NCBI GenBank assembly: GCA_018819305.1
Contig: JAHJQO010000054.1
Coordinates: forward strand, 1 to 42,602
Source: Nanobdellota archaeon
GTDB lineage: Archaea > Nanobdellota > Nanobdellia > Woesearchaeales > SM23-78
Reading direction: 5' to 3'
DNA length: 42,602 nt
The notes beneath the pieces were generated by a model that saw only the letters and a list, made by a program, of their open reading frames with translations, was not told the origin of the DNA and did no database searches. The translations under genes and the position numbers were made by a program. The first letter of the stretch is position 1. Every line of letters starts with the position of its first letter. Below are positions 2 to 5,629 of the stretch, piece by piece.

Positions 2-124
2 GCAAACAGCATGATAAAAAGAGGAATGGGAGAAACATTACGCGGTCGTACCGTCGGACAACAAGCCAGACATTTCTACATGAAATGCTTCACACACAAT
101 ATACTAGTGAGGTGCTCACAATGA
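2..124 (+). pseudogene. C-terminal end of a probable DDE transposase, cut by the window edge
   Basis: Frame 2 reads ANSMIKRGMGETLRGRTVGQQARHFYMKCFTHNILVRCSQ*, resembling the K/R-rich '..Q..E..K...HN' tails of DDE transposases. Too short for the ORF track. Confidence 0.5.
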
Positions 125-212
125 AACTTGCAAACGAGCCTCTGAGCTTGATATTTCATCTTCTAGGGCGCTGCTGTACTTGTTGTTTGCTGTTCTTGGA
201 TAAAGTCCCATT

Positions 213-2555
213 TTATTTCTCTGCACTCAAATACAATTGTTCTGCTAATTTTGCTGTATATTCAAATGAAAATCCATGTTTTTCTTTCATCGCGCTAAGT
301 AAACTTTCATAATTGTGCACTTCTCCATATTTGTATCTGCTTACTTGATTAAACATCAAATCATTCACATTTAGCGCTTCCACATTTATTTTTCCTTCTC
401 TTTGCTTTGTTTTTTTATCTAGTGTTATTATCCATGGAAGATTGTATTCTTTAACTAATAAATATCCTTCTAGTCCTTTAATTGTGCTTGAGTTGATTGT
501 GTCTACAAATAATGATCCGTGAGCTGTTATTTCATTATCTTTTTGAAAATTACTTTCATCTAATTCATATGGAACATATCCTTTTAAATCAAGTTGTGAA
601 AAATCCTTTATTTTTCCTTTTGTTTTAAAAACCGTATGATATCCGTCTTTTATTAATGCCAGATTTTCAATATTATAACTTTTTTCCATGTAGAACTCTG
701 TTCCTAAGGGAATATTACATATTCTTCTTAGCATTAGTTCATCTATTTCAATAGTTACTATTTTGGACTCTAATATTCGGTTAATACGATTTATCGGATT
801 AGGTAGAGGAACATTATTTTTATCTATTATTTTTTCTATGTTTTCTTTTCTTAAATAAGCAGTTGTTCCTTTTAATTCTAAAACATTGCCTTTTATTTGG
901 TTTTCATTTTCTTCAATAATTTCAGTCCTTTGGTCTTGTTTTGCTTTTTTACTTGGAGAAGCAGGTATTGCATTATAAATTCTTGTCAGATCATTAACTA
1001 TCTTGTTATATTGGGGTCTTAATTCTTTTAGGTGTTTTTGAAATGATTTTAAGAATTCATTCATAAAAAGATCAAATTGTTCTTTCATTTCTTTTTGAGT
1101 AACAGAAATTCTTTCACTAAGTATTTTATCATCTGTTCTCCAGTTATCAATGACATAATGTAGAAAATTGCTCCATTTAGCTATACTGAAATCTTTTTCT
1201 GGGTTGTCTAAATATTGAAATATGTAGTTATAATAAATATTCCCGAACGGAGTGGATTTTATTGTTCTGCCATCTGTTTCTAATAGATTATTTTTTATTA
1301 ACCTATTGATTAAAGGAGCTCTTGTTGTATGCGTTCCTATATTTTGTTCCCGGCAAATTTCCAAAAATCTTGAGTTTGATATTCCATTATTATATTCTTT
1401 TGTTTGAACCATTGCATAATCCGGTTCAGCGACTTTTTTTTGTATTGTTTCTAAATCAAGCAATCCGTCAAAAATTAAGTAAGTGTAATCTTCAGGATTT
1501 TCCTTTGATAACCTGTGTTCTTCTCGAAGCACCTCTTTAAGCCCTAAAAGAAGTGTCCTTCCAATAGAAAATTTTAGTCTTGATTCTGGCACTTTTTGTC
1601 TTTTGACATAATTTGCTTTTGTTGTTAAGCTAACACCATATATGTAATCAAAAAACGACTTGAGTTTTCCAGAATAAACATTTTCCCAATCTATTTCTTG
1701 CGGATTATTTATTTGTTCTTTTAATGTGGCAGATGATAAATCATCTGGATTTATTCTTTTTAACGGAATCTTTATTTCTTCATATCTTTTATTTTTCCTT
1801 TGAGCATTTGCAGCTTCTATTACTGAATAAAAAATACTTGATCCTGCTATGTCAAAGTCTGTTGCTCCTATTATTTCGTCTATTTCTATTCTTGATCCTT
1901 TCCTTATTGTCGGAGTATCGCAAGGCATTCTTTGCGCGCTTAGCAGTGAATTTATTAAAAAGCTTCTTGCTTGATAAGATCTATTATTTTTACCTTTTAT
2001 TTTATCTATTTTTGGCTTGAAGCTGAGTTTTGATTCTAAGTCAGAAAAGTCTTTGGCTTCAATTACTGCTTTTTCTAAATAAGTTTTTGAGTTATTATTA
2101 AGATTATATATGTTTCCGCTTGTATCTACTATTATGTAGCGCACTCCATCTTTTTCAATTAAGTAATAAGAAATGTCTTCCACTAAGGGTTTTTGTTTTG
2201 GATTTTTCTTTTCACTTTTTAAGCCCTGTTCTTTTTCTTCTTCTATTTCAATCATGGATTCAAGATTTTTTCTTGCTCTCGAAGGATTTTGTTTACTTGT
2301 TTTATCTACATAAACTGCTTCAAAATTACAATTATCACATTTGTATTGACAGAAATAATGGTAATTATCTTCTTTAAGATTGTTTTTTGATACAAAACAA
2401 GAAGTTATATCGTGTGTTCCTCTGGGCTTAACAAAAATAATATCTCTATGCAAAGCATCTGTTCTTCCTTCAGAATCAAATAATTCTGGAGCAATAGCTT
2501 TTGCAATGGCATCAGATATTGTTTTCTTTTCTGCTATGATGATTTTGGTTTCCAT
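213..2555 (-). CDS. Divergent topoisomerase IA-like protein (TOPRIM-type N-terminus, reduced or absent gate domains)
   Basis: N-terminal IIIAEKKTISDAIAKAI (TOPRIM Glu region), GATDFDIAGSSIFYSVIEAA (DxD), FSIGRTLLLGLKEVL (cf. SAGRVQ) and NIGTHTTRAPLINRLIKNNLL (cf. GIGTPATRA). No recognisable GLITYxRTDS catalytic motif. Confidence 0.7.
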   Translation of the reverse strand: METKIIIAEKKTISDAIAKAIAPELFDSEGRTDALHRDIIFVKPRGTHDITSCFVSKNNLKEDNYHYFCQYKCDNCNFEAVYVDKTSKQNPSRARKNLESMIEIEEEKEQGLKSEKKNPKQKPLVEDISYYLIEKDGVRYIIVDTSGNIYNLNNNSKTYLEKAVIEAKDFSDLESKLSFKPKIDKIKGKNNRSYQARSFLINSLLSAQRMPCDTPTIRKGSRIEIDEIIGATDFDIAGSSIFYSVIEAANAQRKNKRYEEIKIPLKRINPDDLSSATLKEQINNPQEIDWENVYSGKLKSFFDYIYGVSLTTKANYVKRQKVPESRLKFSIGRTLLLGLKEVLREEHRLSKENPEDYTYLIFDGLLDLETIQKKVAEPDYAMVQTKEYNNGISNSRFLEICREQNIGTHTTRAPLINRLIKNNLLETDGRTIKSTPFGNIYYNYIFQYLDNPEKDFSIAKWSNFLHYVIDNWRTDDKILSERISVTQKEMKEQFDLFMNEFLKSFQKHLKELRPQYNKIVNDLTRIYNAIPASPSKKAKQDQRTEIIEENENQIKGNVLELKGTTAYLRKENIEKIIDKNNVPLPNPINRINRILESKIVTIEIDELMLRRICNIPLGTEFYMEKSYNIENLALIKDGYHTVFKTKGKIKDFSQLDLKGYVPYELDESNFQKDNEITAHGSLFVDTINSSTIKGLEGYLLVKEYNLPWIITLDKKTKQREGKINVEALNVNDLMFNQVSRYKYGEVHNYESLLSAMKEKHGFSFEYTAKLAEQLYLSAEK

Positions 2556-2582
2556 TATTTTTCTTTAGTGTTTACTTCAGTA

Positions 2583-5492
2583 TCATTTATGGTAAAAATC
2601 TCTTATTTGTTCTCCCATTTGTTTAAATGAAATAAAGTCATTTGGACTGCTCATGTGGGAGGAAATATACTTCTTGATTAATGCAGAAGATTTTTCATTT
2701 AATGACCCTGGAATGACTATGTTTTGATCAAAAGTCCTTACTGGTTTTTGTAGTATTTGTAAATTTTTCTTTGCATTATCTGTATTTAACAATTCATACC
2801 CAAAAGGACTCTCACTGCCGTCATTTTTTACTCCCAGTAGTCTTTCATCTGCACAAATTATTACTGCTCTATCATCCATTCTTCTGTGTGTTCGTCCTAT
2901 TGTTTGGGCTAGTTTTCTGAAAGTATCTTGTTTAAAAGCTAAATCTTCTCCCATTGATTCATTGCCTGTCAGCATATGGAAATAATTCTTTTTTACTTCA
3001 TTTATTTCTCTTTCTGTTGCAGAACTTGGGTATGGAAGACCTATTGTGATTACCATTTCCATTTGGTTACCTACATAATCAACTCCTTCTGAAAGTGCTC
3101 CTCCGCTCACACTTAATAGCACTGATGTTAACTTTGTTTTTCCCAATTGTTTATATACTTCCACGACATTAGTGTCATTTAATTCCATATCATTCATGTT
3201 GACTTTTGCACAAGCATTTAAAAAATAAGTATGCATTATTTCTATAAATTTCTCATCAAAATAATTCTTTATATAAGGAATAATTATGTCATAATTATTA
3301 ATTTTCTTTATTATACCATAAACTTCTTCTACACAATTGTTACTATTACAAAACACACCTATGTTTTTTGTTTTTGCAGAAGAGAAAGCTTCATCAAATA
3401 AGTCAGTTAATATTTCTTTTTCTCCTGAAGAAAAATATTCAGCTTTTTCACCTATTCCTTTTCTGCTTGAATTTACTCCTGTTATGATAAATGGTTTGTA
3501 ATTTTCCTCAGGAAACACAGGATCTATTTGCACTTTGATTGCATCTTCCAGCCCAGTTACAGTTGCCACGTCTTTTACAGGTGTTATTGTGGCGCTAGTA
3601 AAAATTCTTGAGGAGTAATTTTTTAAGTCTCTTTCTATGCTTTTTTCAGGAGTCAAATTATAAAAGTTTATTTTCTCTTCTTCTTTTCTTATTAAGAAGT
3701 CTCTTGGGTTATCAATGATTTCTATAAAAGAAGATATTAATTGAGAGTAGGAATGCATATGGTGGCTTATTGTTCTTAAAAACTTTGTTTCTTCATTTGG
3801 TTTTATCGCATAATAAATTTCTTCTTGATTGTCATTAAGAAATGATTGAATATAATTGTTAGATTTTTTTAGTTCATCAACAAATTCCACAGGTAAGTTA
3901 TTGATAAATTCATCCATTTGATCTTCTTTAATTAAATTAGTTTGTCTTGGAACATGTTCTTGTATTATTGAATAAATATTTCTTAATTCATAAAAAAAAT
4001 CTCTTAAGTTTATATTTTCATAAAAAATAGGTTCTTCTCCTTCAAGTTCTCTATTAAGAAAGTTTTTTTCTATATCCCAAGATAAATCATGCATACAGTA
4101 CTGATTGTTGGTTCGGCTGCTAATCCTGTCTGTTTCTTCATTTGTTTTTTTTGAAAGTGTTAAAAATGGCTGGTTAGCACAATCAGCTACATAATTATGG
4201 CTCTCATCTACTATCAGCACAATATCCTCCAGAGTGGTGTCTGCATCCAGAAGATATTTTTTTATCCAATAGGTATCGCTTAAATATGTGTGAGGTGCGA
4301 TTATAATGTCGGCTTTTTTAGAAGCTTTTTGATATATTTTTACTGGACAAAATGGATAATCATCAAGCGAATCCAAATCAATGGAAAATCCTTTGCCGAG
4401 TTTTTCATCAAGCGATTCATGGTCGTTTTTAAACATAAAGAATTTTTTGCATGTTTTATTACATTCATCTTCGTCAAATAACTCTCCGTCATCATCTACG
4501 AAGTCTGATGGGTCAATATCAGGAATTTTTTCATAACATTTTTTATCTTCTCTTATGCGTTCTCTTCCAACAAAAACTGTTGCTTTTATACCAGAAAATA
4601 TTGGCGAGACTTCTCTTAGCTCTTTTATTTCTTTTGCAACATTATCAACCTGAGCTATTGTTCTTGTTGTGTATAGTATTTTCTTCTTTTTTTCTGGGTT
4701 CAATATGTATGGCAAAACCGCTCCTATCAGGGCTCTTGTTTTTCCAAGCCCTGTGGGGCCTTCGATTATCACATCCTGCTTATTTGTTATTGCTTCAAAA
4801 CAAGTAACTAAATATTGTACTTGCTGAGGACGGAGTTCTGATTTTTTTGAACCCGCACTCTTAAATTTGAATAAGTCAGAATAAAGTTCTAGTAATGAAT
4901 CAAGATTGGTTTCTAGCACGTATTGCGTTCCTACTCGAGATATGTCAATATCTTCTTCAGTATTTGCTGTTTTAGTATCATAGTCTATTAAGCTTGGTAT
5001 TTCAAAATCAGGATTTATTGAGGAATAAAAAGTCTTTCTTTCACCTTCAATTAATTCATTTTTTTTTGTTTTAATGCCATCTTTTAGTTGTTTAAGTTTT
5101 CCAGATAATTCTTTATGATGCTTTCTTGTTAAATTAGTATCCTTATAATCTTTTTCTATTTCTTTAAAAGCATGATTTAAGAAGGAAAATTCTTCTTTTG
5201 ATTCTATATCAAATACATCTCTCTCTATTTCTTTAATAGAATCCTCTAAATCTTTTGTTTTCTTTTCAGAATTTTCCCAAAATTCTCGTTTTACCTCTTT
5301 TTCTTTTTTATATTCTTCTCTGTCTTTTTTCCATTCTTCAAATTGATGGCTGATTCTGGCTAAAATATCTGTTTTTAAATGATGTTCATAATCAGATCTA
5401 AATATTTCATTTTGAAATTCTTTTAGCTCTTTCCACCCATCTTTTGGACCTAAATCTGACAGTTCGTCCAAACGCGAATACACATCACCCAT
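2583..5492 (-). CDS. XPD/Rad3/DinG-like SF2 helicase with putative Fe-S cysteine cluster
   Basis: Walker A EGPTGLGKTRALIGA; DESH box (VDESHNYVADCA); GGALSEGVDY; QTIGRTHRRMDD; four Cys (CYEK, CNKT, CKKF, CPVK) between motifs I and II. Confidence 0.85.
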   Translation of the reverse strand: MGDVYSRLDELSDLGPKDGWKELKEFQNEIFRSDYEHHLKTDILARISHQFEEWKKDREEYKKEKEVKREFWENSEKKTKDLEDSIKEIERDVFDIESKEEFSFLNHAFKEIEKDYKDTNLTRKHHKELSGKLKQLKDGIKTKKNELIEGERKTFYSSINPDFEIPSLIDYDTKTANTEEDIDISRVGTQYVLETNLDSLLELYSDLFKFKSAGSKKSELRPQQVQYLVTCFEAITNKQDVIIEGPTGLGKTRALIGAVLPYILNPEKKKKILYTTRTIAQVDNVAKEIKELREVSPIFSGIKATVFVGRERIREDKKCYEKIPDIDPSDFVDDDGELFDEDECNKTCKKFFMFKNDHESLDEKLGKGFSIDLDSLDDYPFCPVKIYQKASKKADIIIAPHTYLSDTYWIKKYLLDADTTLEDIVLIVDESHNYVADCANQPFLTLSKKTNEETDRISSRTNNQYCMHDLSWDIEKNFLNRELEGEEPIFYENINLRDFFYELRNIYSIIQEHVPRQTNLIKEDQMDEFINNLPVEFVDELKKSNNYIQSFLNDNQEEIYYAIKPNEETKFLRTISHHMHSYSQLISSFIEIIDNPRDFLIRKEEEKINFYNLTPEKSIERDLKNYSSRIFTSATITPVKDVATVTGLEDAIKVQIDPVFPEENYKPFIITGVNSSRKGIGEKAEYFSSGEKEILTDLFDEAFSSAKTKNIGVFCNSNNCVEEVYGIIKKINNYDIIIPYIKNYFDEKFIEIMHTYFLNACAKVNMNDMELNDTNVVEVYKQLGKTKLTSVLLSVSGGALSEGVDYVGNQMEMVITIGLPYPSSATEREINEVKKNYFHMLTGNESMGEDLAFKQDTFRKLAQTIGRTHRRMDDRAVIICADERLLGVKNDGSESPFGYELLNTDNAKKNLQILQKPVRTFDQNIVIPGSLNEKSSALIKKYISSHMSSPNDFISFKQMGEQIRDFYHK

Positions 5493-5629
5493 GAATAATG
5501 GGTATTAACGTTTATTTAAAAGCTTTGCCAGCAAAAATCATATATTTGACGAAATAATGATATAATATTATAAACACTCATTTTGATTAATAATAAGATT
5601 TAAATAAAAATATTAAATCTTGTTTTATT

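Follow-up and report, generated by a model that had tools for sequence, protein, structure and literature searches.

The window analysed here (42,602 nucleotides) is the whole of one contig, C49, of a genome assembly of 1.53 Mb in 57 contigs that is 81.7% complete. Near its left end, the minus strand carries two ORFs separated by a gap of 27 bp, encoding an XPD/Rad3-like helicase of 969 amino acids (2583–5492) and a type IA topoisomerase-like protein of 780 amino acids (213–2555), which agrees with the co-directional genes 27 bp apart described in an earlier reading of this DNA made from its letters alone (hereafter the sequence-only reading). The helicase gene is the first of an operon and the topoisomerase-like gene the second; a third ORF (ORF3) and ORFs of 237 and 88 amino acids follow in the same direction, with a tRNA-Ser adjoining the operon beyond the 88-amino-acid ORF, on another contig (C26, see below). 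Tight spacing between genes is the rule across the operon. A TATA-box-like TTTAAATA (5513–5520, minus strand), read in the sequence 21–28 bases before the helicase ATG, is a putative promoter, and its position would fit the leaderless archaeal type.

The edge of the window is formed by an insertion sequence (IS). Bases 1–140 are the end of a multicopy element with the terminal inverted repeat GGCTCGTTTGCAAGTT; contigs C9, C53, C29 and C1 carry the first 141 bases of the window at their ends, and the opposite end of the IS is seen at six further contig ends. Copies of the element break the assembly at window bases 1–141 and at contigs C1, C8, C9, C11, C25, C26, C29, C53 and C55. All five left ends of the IS pair with right ends via perfect 8-bp target duplications (C49 with C26, C9 with the end of C29, C53 with C55, the start of C29 with C8, and C1 with C11). 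For the window, the duplication is AGCTCAGA (141–148), and its second copy opens the flank on C26 (141–148 of that locus, L066). ORF3 stays in frame when C49 is joined to C26 across the empty IS site, and in a sister genome, G005, homologues of the dUTPase that neighbours the operon and of the C26 genes lie no more than 4 kb apart. Given the perfect duplication, the like behaviour of the other four pairs, the in-frame ORF3 and the synteny in G005, we identified C26 as the predicted continuation of the operon. The inverted repeat and 8-bp duplication of this IS resemble what we take to be those of the IS6 family; its terminal peptides (two, one of them an approximate reading) gave no identification against Pfam. 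On C26, the 237-amino-acid ORF (L066 771–1484) has no confident family, its AF0941-like match being weak (E 0.0012, below cut-off), and the 88-amino-acid ORF (L066 1481–1747) has no confident family match. A perfect tandem repeat of 36 bp in 3.9 copies (AAAACAAAATTAGAAATTTTGAATATTTTCAAAAAT; L066 3288–3428) closes this contig.

As can be seen from several searches, the first gene encodes a superfamily 2 DNA helicase of the XPD type. The protein matches Helicase_C_2 (E 1.5e-21) and DEAD_2 (E 3.9e-10) of Pfam, rad3 of NCBIfam (E 4e-46; 157.9 bits, under the cut-off of 247) and XPD structures among PDB sequences (E 3.5e-22), the nearest entries being archaeal XPD. It carries a Walker A motif, GPTGLGKT, at residue 245 and a DESH box at 429, and between them lie four candidate Fe–S cysteines (C319, C344, C348 and C382), in keeping with the XPD/DinG-like Fe–S helicase proposed before. 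These motifs and Helicase_C_2 are common to XPD/Rad3/DinG helicases, from which the protein differs in its score below the rad3 cut-off and in an N-terminal extension of 215 residues. The extension (residues 1–215) is charged, probably coiled-coil, and without family match. The helicase is distinct from the ordinary XPD-like ORF of the genome, found on contig C45.

In ordinary type IA topoisomerases the gate, made up of domains II and III and bearing the catalytic tyrosine, is inserted within domain IV. The 780-amino-acid protein of the window keeps the normal succession of domains I and IV, and its gate is not nested in domain IV. The TOPRIM-like and domain IV-like motifs that the sequence-only reading had noted (TDFDIAGS, FSIGRTLLLGL and NIGTHTTRA) were present, and so was E9–K10. 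The TOPRIM glutamate E9 (2529–2531, minus strand) precedes K10, a pairing shared with topoisomerase III (the E–K rule; PMC10969213), and is conserved in the single homologue found (P0003, see below). In the TOPRIM motif TDFDIAGSS (1836–1862, minus strand) DxD is kept and the third acidic residue is replaced by alanine, so that DxDxE indeed reads DxDxA, as had been claimed; TDFDIAGS is identical in the homologue. The two parts of domain IV correspond to positions 2–72 (1467–1694, minus strand; 12.6 bits alone) and 324–377 (1221–1382, minus strand; a Pfam match containing NIGTHTTRA) of the Topoisom_bac profile, and the homologue covers positions 5–73 of the first part. Against Topoisom_bac the whole protein scored 36.8 bits (cut-off 35.1), with the NIGTHTTRA segment the best, and the homologue 22.1 bits, below the cut-off. 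The Pfam Toprim profile gave the window protein 13.9 bits only, also below cut-off; archaeal TopA models matched it at about 1e-17, topA_arch (TIGR01057) giving 61.7 bits against a cut-off of 458. S-x-G-R and GTxTTR stand 77 residues apart, versus 292–319 in ordinary Woesearchaeal enzymes (n=20); the shortened gap of the earlier description thus held, with 77 in place of its figure of about 90 residues between FSIGRTLLLGL and NIGTHTTRA. An ordinary type IA topoisomerase, with 387.8 bits across the whole Pfam core, is encoded on contig C40, which makes the window protein an extra type IA paralogue, as had been suspected.

We searched 353 genomes of the order and found one true relative of the topoisomerase-like protein (E 6e-78), in a Woesearchaeota MAG of the same order (G172; contig JAFGSP010000169.1). 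The homologue is 33–34% identical and has both the 77-residue spacing and TDFDIAGS. A helicase lies directly upstream of it with a 4-bp overlap, and is 51% identical to that of the window over the C-terminal part, so the gene-neighbourhood search suggested earlier did recover the helicase–topoisomerase adjacency in a second genome. Since the equal spacing, TDFDIAGS and the upstream helicase recur together on JAFGSP010000169.1, the short-spacing protein is, as judged from these sequences, neither chance nor a fragment. Samples of 371, 378 and 315 genomes (phylum and class) held no further family members; three candidates (G452, G480 and G561) were rejected as ordinary enzymes, since their YPRT sits where it normally does. 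The earlier suggestion of plasmid or virus biology found no backing, as neither protein of the pair, nor an alignment of either, retrieved a relative from the IMG/VR, phage and plasmid collections; an ordinary-topoisomerase query against IMG/VR likewise gave no match. With one relative in the order and none in the further samples or in the viral, phage and plasmid collections, the pair is conserved but rare, the five-gene operon having 2 carriers among hundreds of genomes.

The question of the missing gate centres on the C-terminus of the protein and on ORF3. Catalytic Tyr-then-Arg is absent from the 780-amino-acid ORF, and neither family member has a tyrosine motif inside domain IV, which was the outcome of the proposed search for a conserved tyrosine in homologues. 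However, the last 85 residues of the window protein matched, among 24,736 Pfam families, solely Topoisom_bac at positions 101–155 (E 0.01), the putative relocated start of gate domain III with its pre-tyrosine helices (228–395, minus strand; about 60 residues at the C-terminus). A single base separates the topoisomerase stop from the ATG of ORF3 (TAA A ATG), which lies in another frame; ORF3 begins MGLYPRTANNKYS, and its start in the window (116–211, minus strand; MGLYPRTANNKYSSALEDEIS...) has the catalytic-tyrosine-like motif YPRT at residues 4–7, in register with the C-terminal helices. Around the catalytic tyrosine, the sequence of ordinary relatives is LYTxGxISYPRTSSQKLP. The IS interrupts ORF3 71 nucleotides in, after about 23 codons, and the codons below base 141 are IS DNA; with the IS bridged, ORF3 is 224 amino acids long, its remainder lying on C26 (L066 141–752). 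The claim that the catalytic tyrosine region is missing stood as far as its usual place is concerned, and is probably wrong for the family, as pre-tyrosine helices seem to end one ORF of this locus and YPRT opens the next.

When the tail was joined with ORF3, the Topoisom_bac match extended to position 177–179 (E 8.7e-6 to 1.5e-5); in these joined queries one lysine was put at the junction by us and does not imply the real sequence. The joined protein of 1005 amino acids matched the profile in three stretches (48.9 bits, E 6.5e-13), in the order 2–72, 324–377 and 101–178, the C-terminal stretch being the best. Changing the tyrosine and arginine of YPRT to alanine lowered the score from 25.4 to 12.3 bits, and control sequences, one reversed and one shuffled, gave no match. 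An independent comparison of profiles, made against aligned ordinary enzymes, placed HGFSFEYTAKLAEQLYLSAEK|MGLYPRTANNKYSSAL across the stop on the tyrosine region as the top local match, with a score of 26.8 versus a maximum of 24.4 in 100 shuffles. A PDB sequence search with the tail found nothing, and AlphaFold2 on the two-sequence alignment reached a pLDDT of 30. Support for relocation is moderate, not overwhelming, because a narrow HMMER profile of Woesearchaeal topoisomerases did not separate the tail from background (E about 3). The evidence comes from one genome; the G172 contig stops at the position matching residue 643 of the window protein, before the C-terminus of the homologue, and a search for a continuation contig found none. 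ORF3 alone gave nothing convincing against Pfam, NCBIfam, PADLOC, PHROGs and the 353 genomes of the order, and its remaining 200 or so amino acids showed no family match and nothing that clearly corresponds to the HPAIYPT motif, so that the rest of domains III and II is putative.

These results point to a type IA topoisomerase that has been rewired and is encoded behind an XPD-like helicase: domain IV has probably closed up and the gate moved to the C-terminus, a reading that we hold with moderate confidence. The stretch bridging domain IV would measure 77 residues where about 295 are usual, and the gate would come after it at the C-terminus. E9 and DxD of the TOPRIM domain together with the relocated Tyr-Arg could form one active site, which would cut a single strand through a 5′-phosphotyrosyl link. 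The XPD-type helicase would open the duplex by ATP hydrolysis and feed single strands to the topoisomerase; with strands supplied in this way, the pair may pass them in the manner of the RecQ–Top3 pair or reverse gyrase. The tyrosine part is here a separate ORF, and could belong either to a true two-subunit enzyme or to a frameshifted gene. We rate these two as equally likely, since it would be unusual for a separate polypeptide to carry the tyrosine as early as its residue 4. The IS cuts the tyrosine ORF and the reading frame is broken, so the enzyme of this genome probably has no activity, unless an IS-free allele exists.

The sequence-only reading had proposed a non-cleaving or very compact TopoIA. 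In the non-cleaving version the gate would be lost, the TOPRIM and domain IV parts would bind single-stranded DNA to aid the helicase, and YPRT of ORF3 would be coincidental. The alanine at the third TOPRIM acidic position in both members, the failure of ORF3 alone to match a family and the lack of a tyrosine motif inside domain IV would all fit this. However, the C-terminus by itself matches the pre-tyrosine helices, the adjoining YPRT extends that match in register, and E9–K10 and DxD are retained, though a mere binder would not need them. We consider this version unlikely, and a very compact enzyme is not supported either: with pre-tyrosine helices at the C-terminus and Tyr-Pro-Arg-Thr starting ORF3, the gate looks relocated rather than lost. 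A closer contender, to which we give a little short of an even chance, is a decayed gene: a topoisomerase of about 1005 amino acids, once continuous, would have been disrupted by the gain or loss of a single base (genuine or introduced during assembly) and by the IS within a degenerating island. On domain order this agrees with the rewired topoisomerase; the two part over whether the split has a function. The one-base change of frame falls exactly at the stop, and the IS has entered the second ORF after 71 nucleotides; a pair of neighbouring ORFs whose frames differ by one base has elsewhere been treated as possible pseudogenisation or sequencing error (PMC6878951). Decay is less easily reconciled with 780 plus 204 further codons that are open and coding-like in composition, or with the tight gene spacing seen throughout this operon.

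The surroundings bear on decay as well as on a third reading. The operon looks like a genomic island, because its third-position G+C (0.19–0.27) is lower than that of its neighbours (0.32–0.36) and its spot is taken by other genes in G005; both points would suit a degenerating island. The third reading is a candidate defence or mobile-element module, in which the helicase, the topoisomerase-like protein and three small proteins would act against foreign DNA. A patchy distribution, five co-directional genes, an adjacent tRNA-Ser and a helicase that matches DinG-like models of CRISPR type IV speak for such a module. PADLOC, however, had no convincing model for the other operon proteins, no repeat of a tRNA attachment site was found at the island, and phage, plasmid and viral relatives are lacking from the collections searched. 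The type IV match is explained by XPD/DinG kinship. Among the operon proteins the helicase alone matches a type IV model, that of DinG (Csf4), and no other Csf proteins stand alongside it. A defence or mobile-element role thus seems to us distinctly improbable.

The putative rewired topoisomerase recalls several known systems. With archaeal type IA topoisomerase and topoisomerase III (PF01131 and the TIGR01057 family) it shares the TOPRIM E–K and DxD, S-x-G-R, GTxTTR and, once the next ORF is counted, a putative YPRT-type tyrosine motif; it differs in the DxDxA, in a domain IV without the gate, in its C-terminal pre-tyrosine helices and in a tyrosine motif placed in the next ORF. Type IA enzymes from two archaeal polypeptides are found in Nanoarchaeum equitans, whose Top3 comes from a split gene (reviewed in PMC4200833), and among reverse gyrases, which are split in both N. 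equitans and Methanopyrus kandleri (reviewed in PMC8185306); split reverse gyrases are likewise described in PMC6878951. These split enzymes are, as far as is known, cut within the usual succession of domains, whereas in the window protein the order itself seems to be changed. Reverse gyrase and RecQ–Top3 share with the window pair a superfamily 2 helicase and a type IA topoisomerase. The window helicase, however, is of the XPD/DinG class and encoded by a separate gene, and not of the RecQ type or of the reverse-gyrase type, joined or split; the likeness is in work, not membership. It is possible, although we hold it doubtful, that the locus represents an undescribed type IA class and a new machine, with an un-nested C-terminal gate, the tyrosine on a separate polypeptide and an XPD-type helicase of its own.

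We know of no described type IA topoisomerase whose gate is not inserted in domain IV, and gate-opening models rest on the two-hinge connection of the gate. If the relocation is true, an enzyme with a single-point gate attachment would directly test the need for a double connection in strand passage, and the locus would show an XPD-type helicase and a type IA topoisomerase teamed up in nature. It would also caution that a verdict of 'catalytically dead' may be mistaken if a domain has changed place or the contig breaks off. Compared with archaeal type IA topoisomerase and topoisomerase III, the TOPRIM domain of the window protein further carries a Cys-rich insertion (FCQ..C..C.FE). The homologue in G172 (L037 883–3042) has an extra insertion of its own in the TOPRIM region, at residues about 120–205 (FQRPVLEILRQRGNMSLNDLRDAV...), which is absent from the window protein and is possibly a winged helix.
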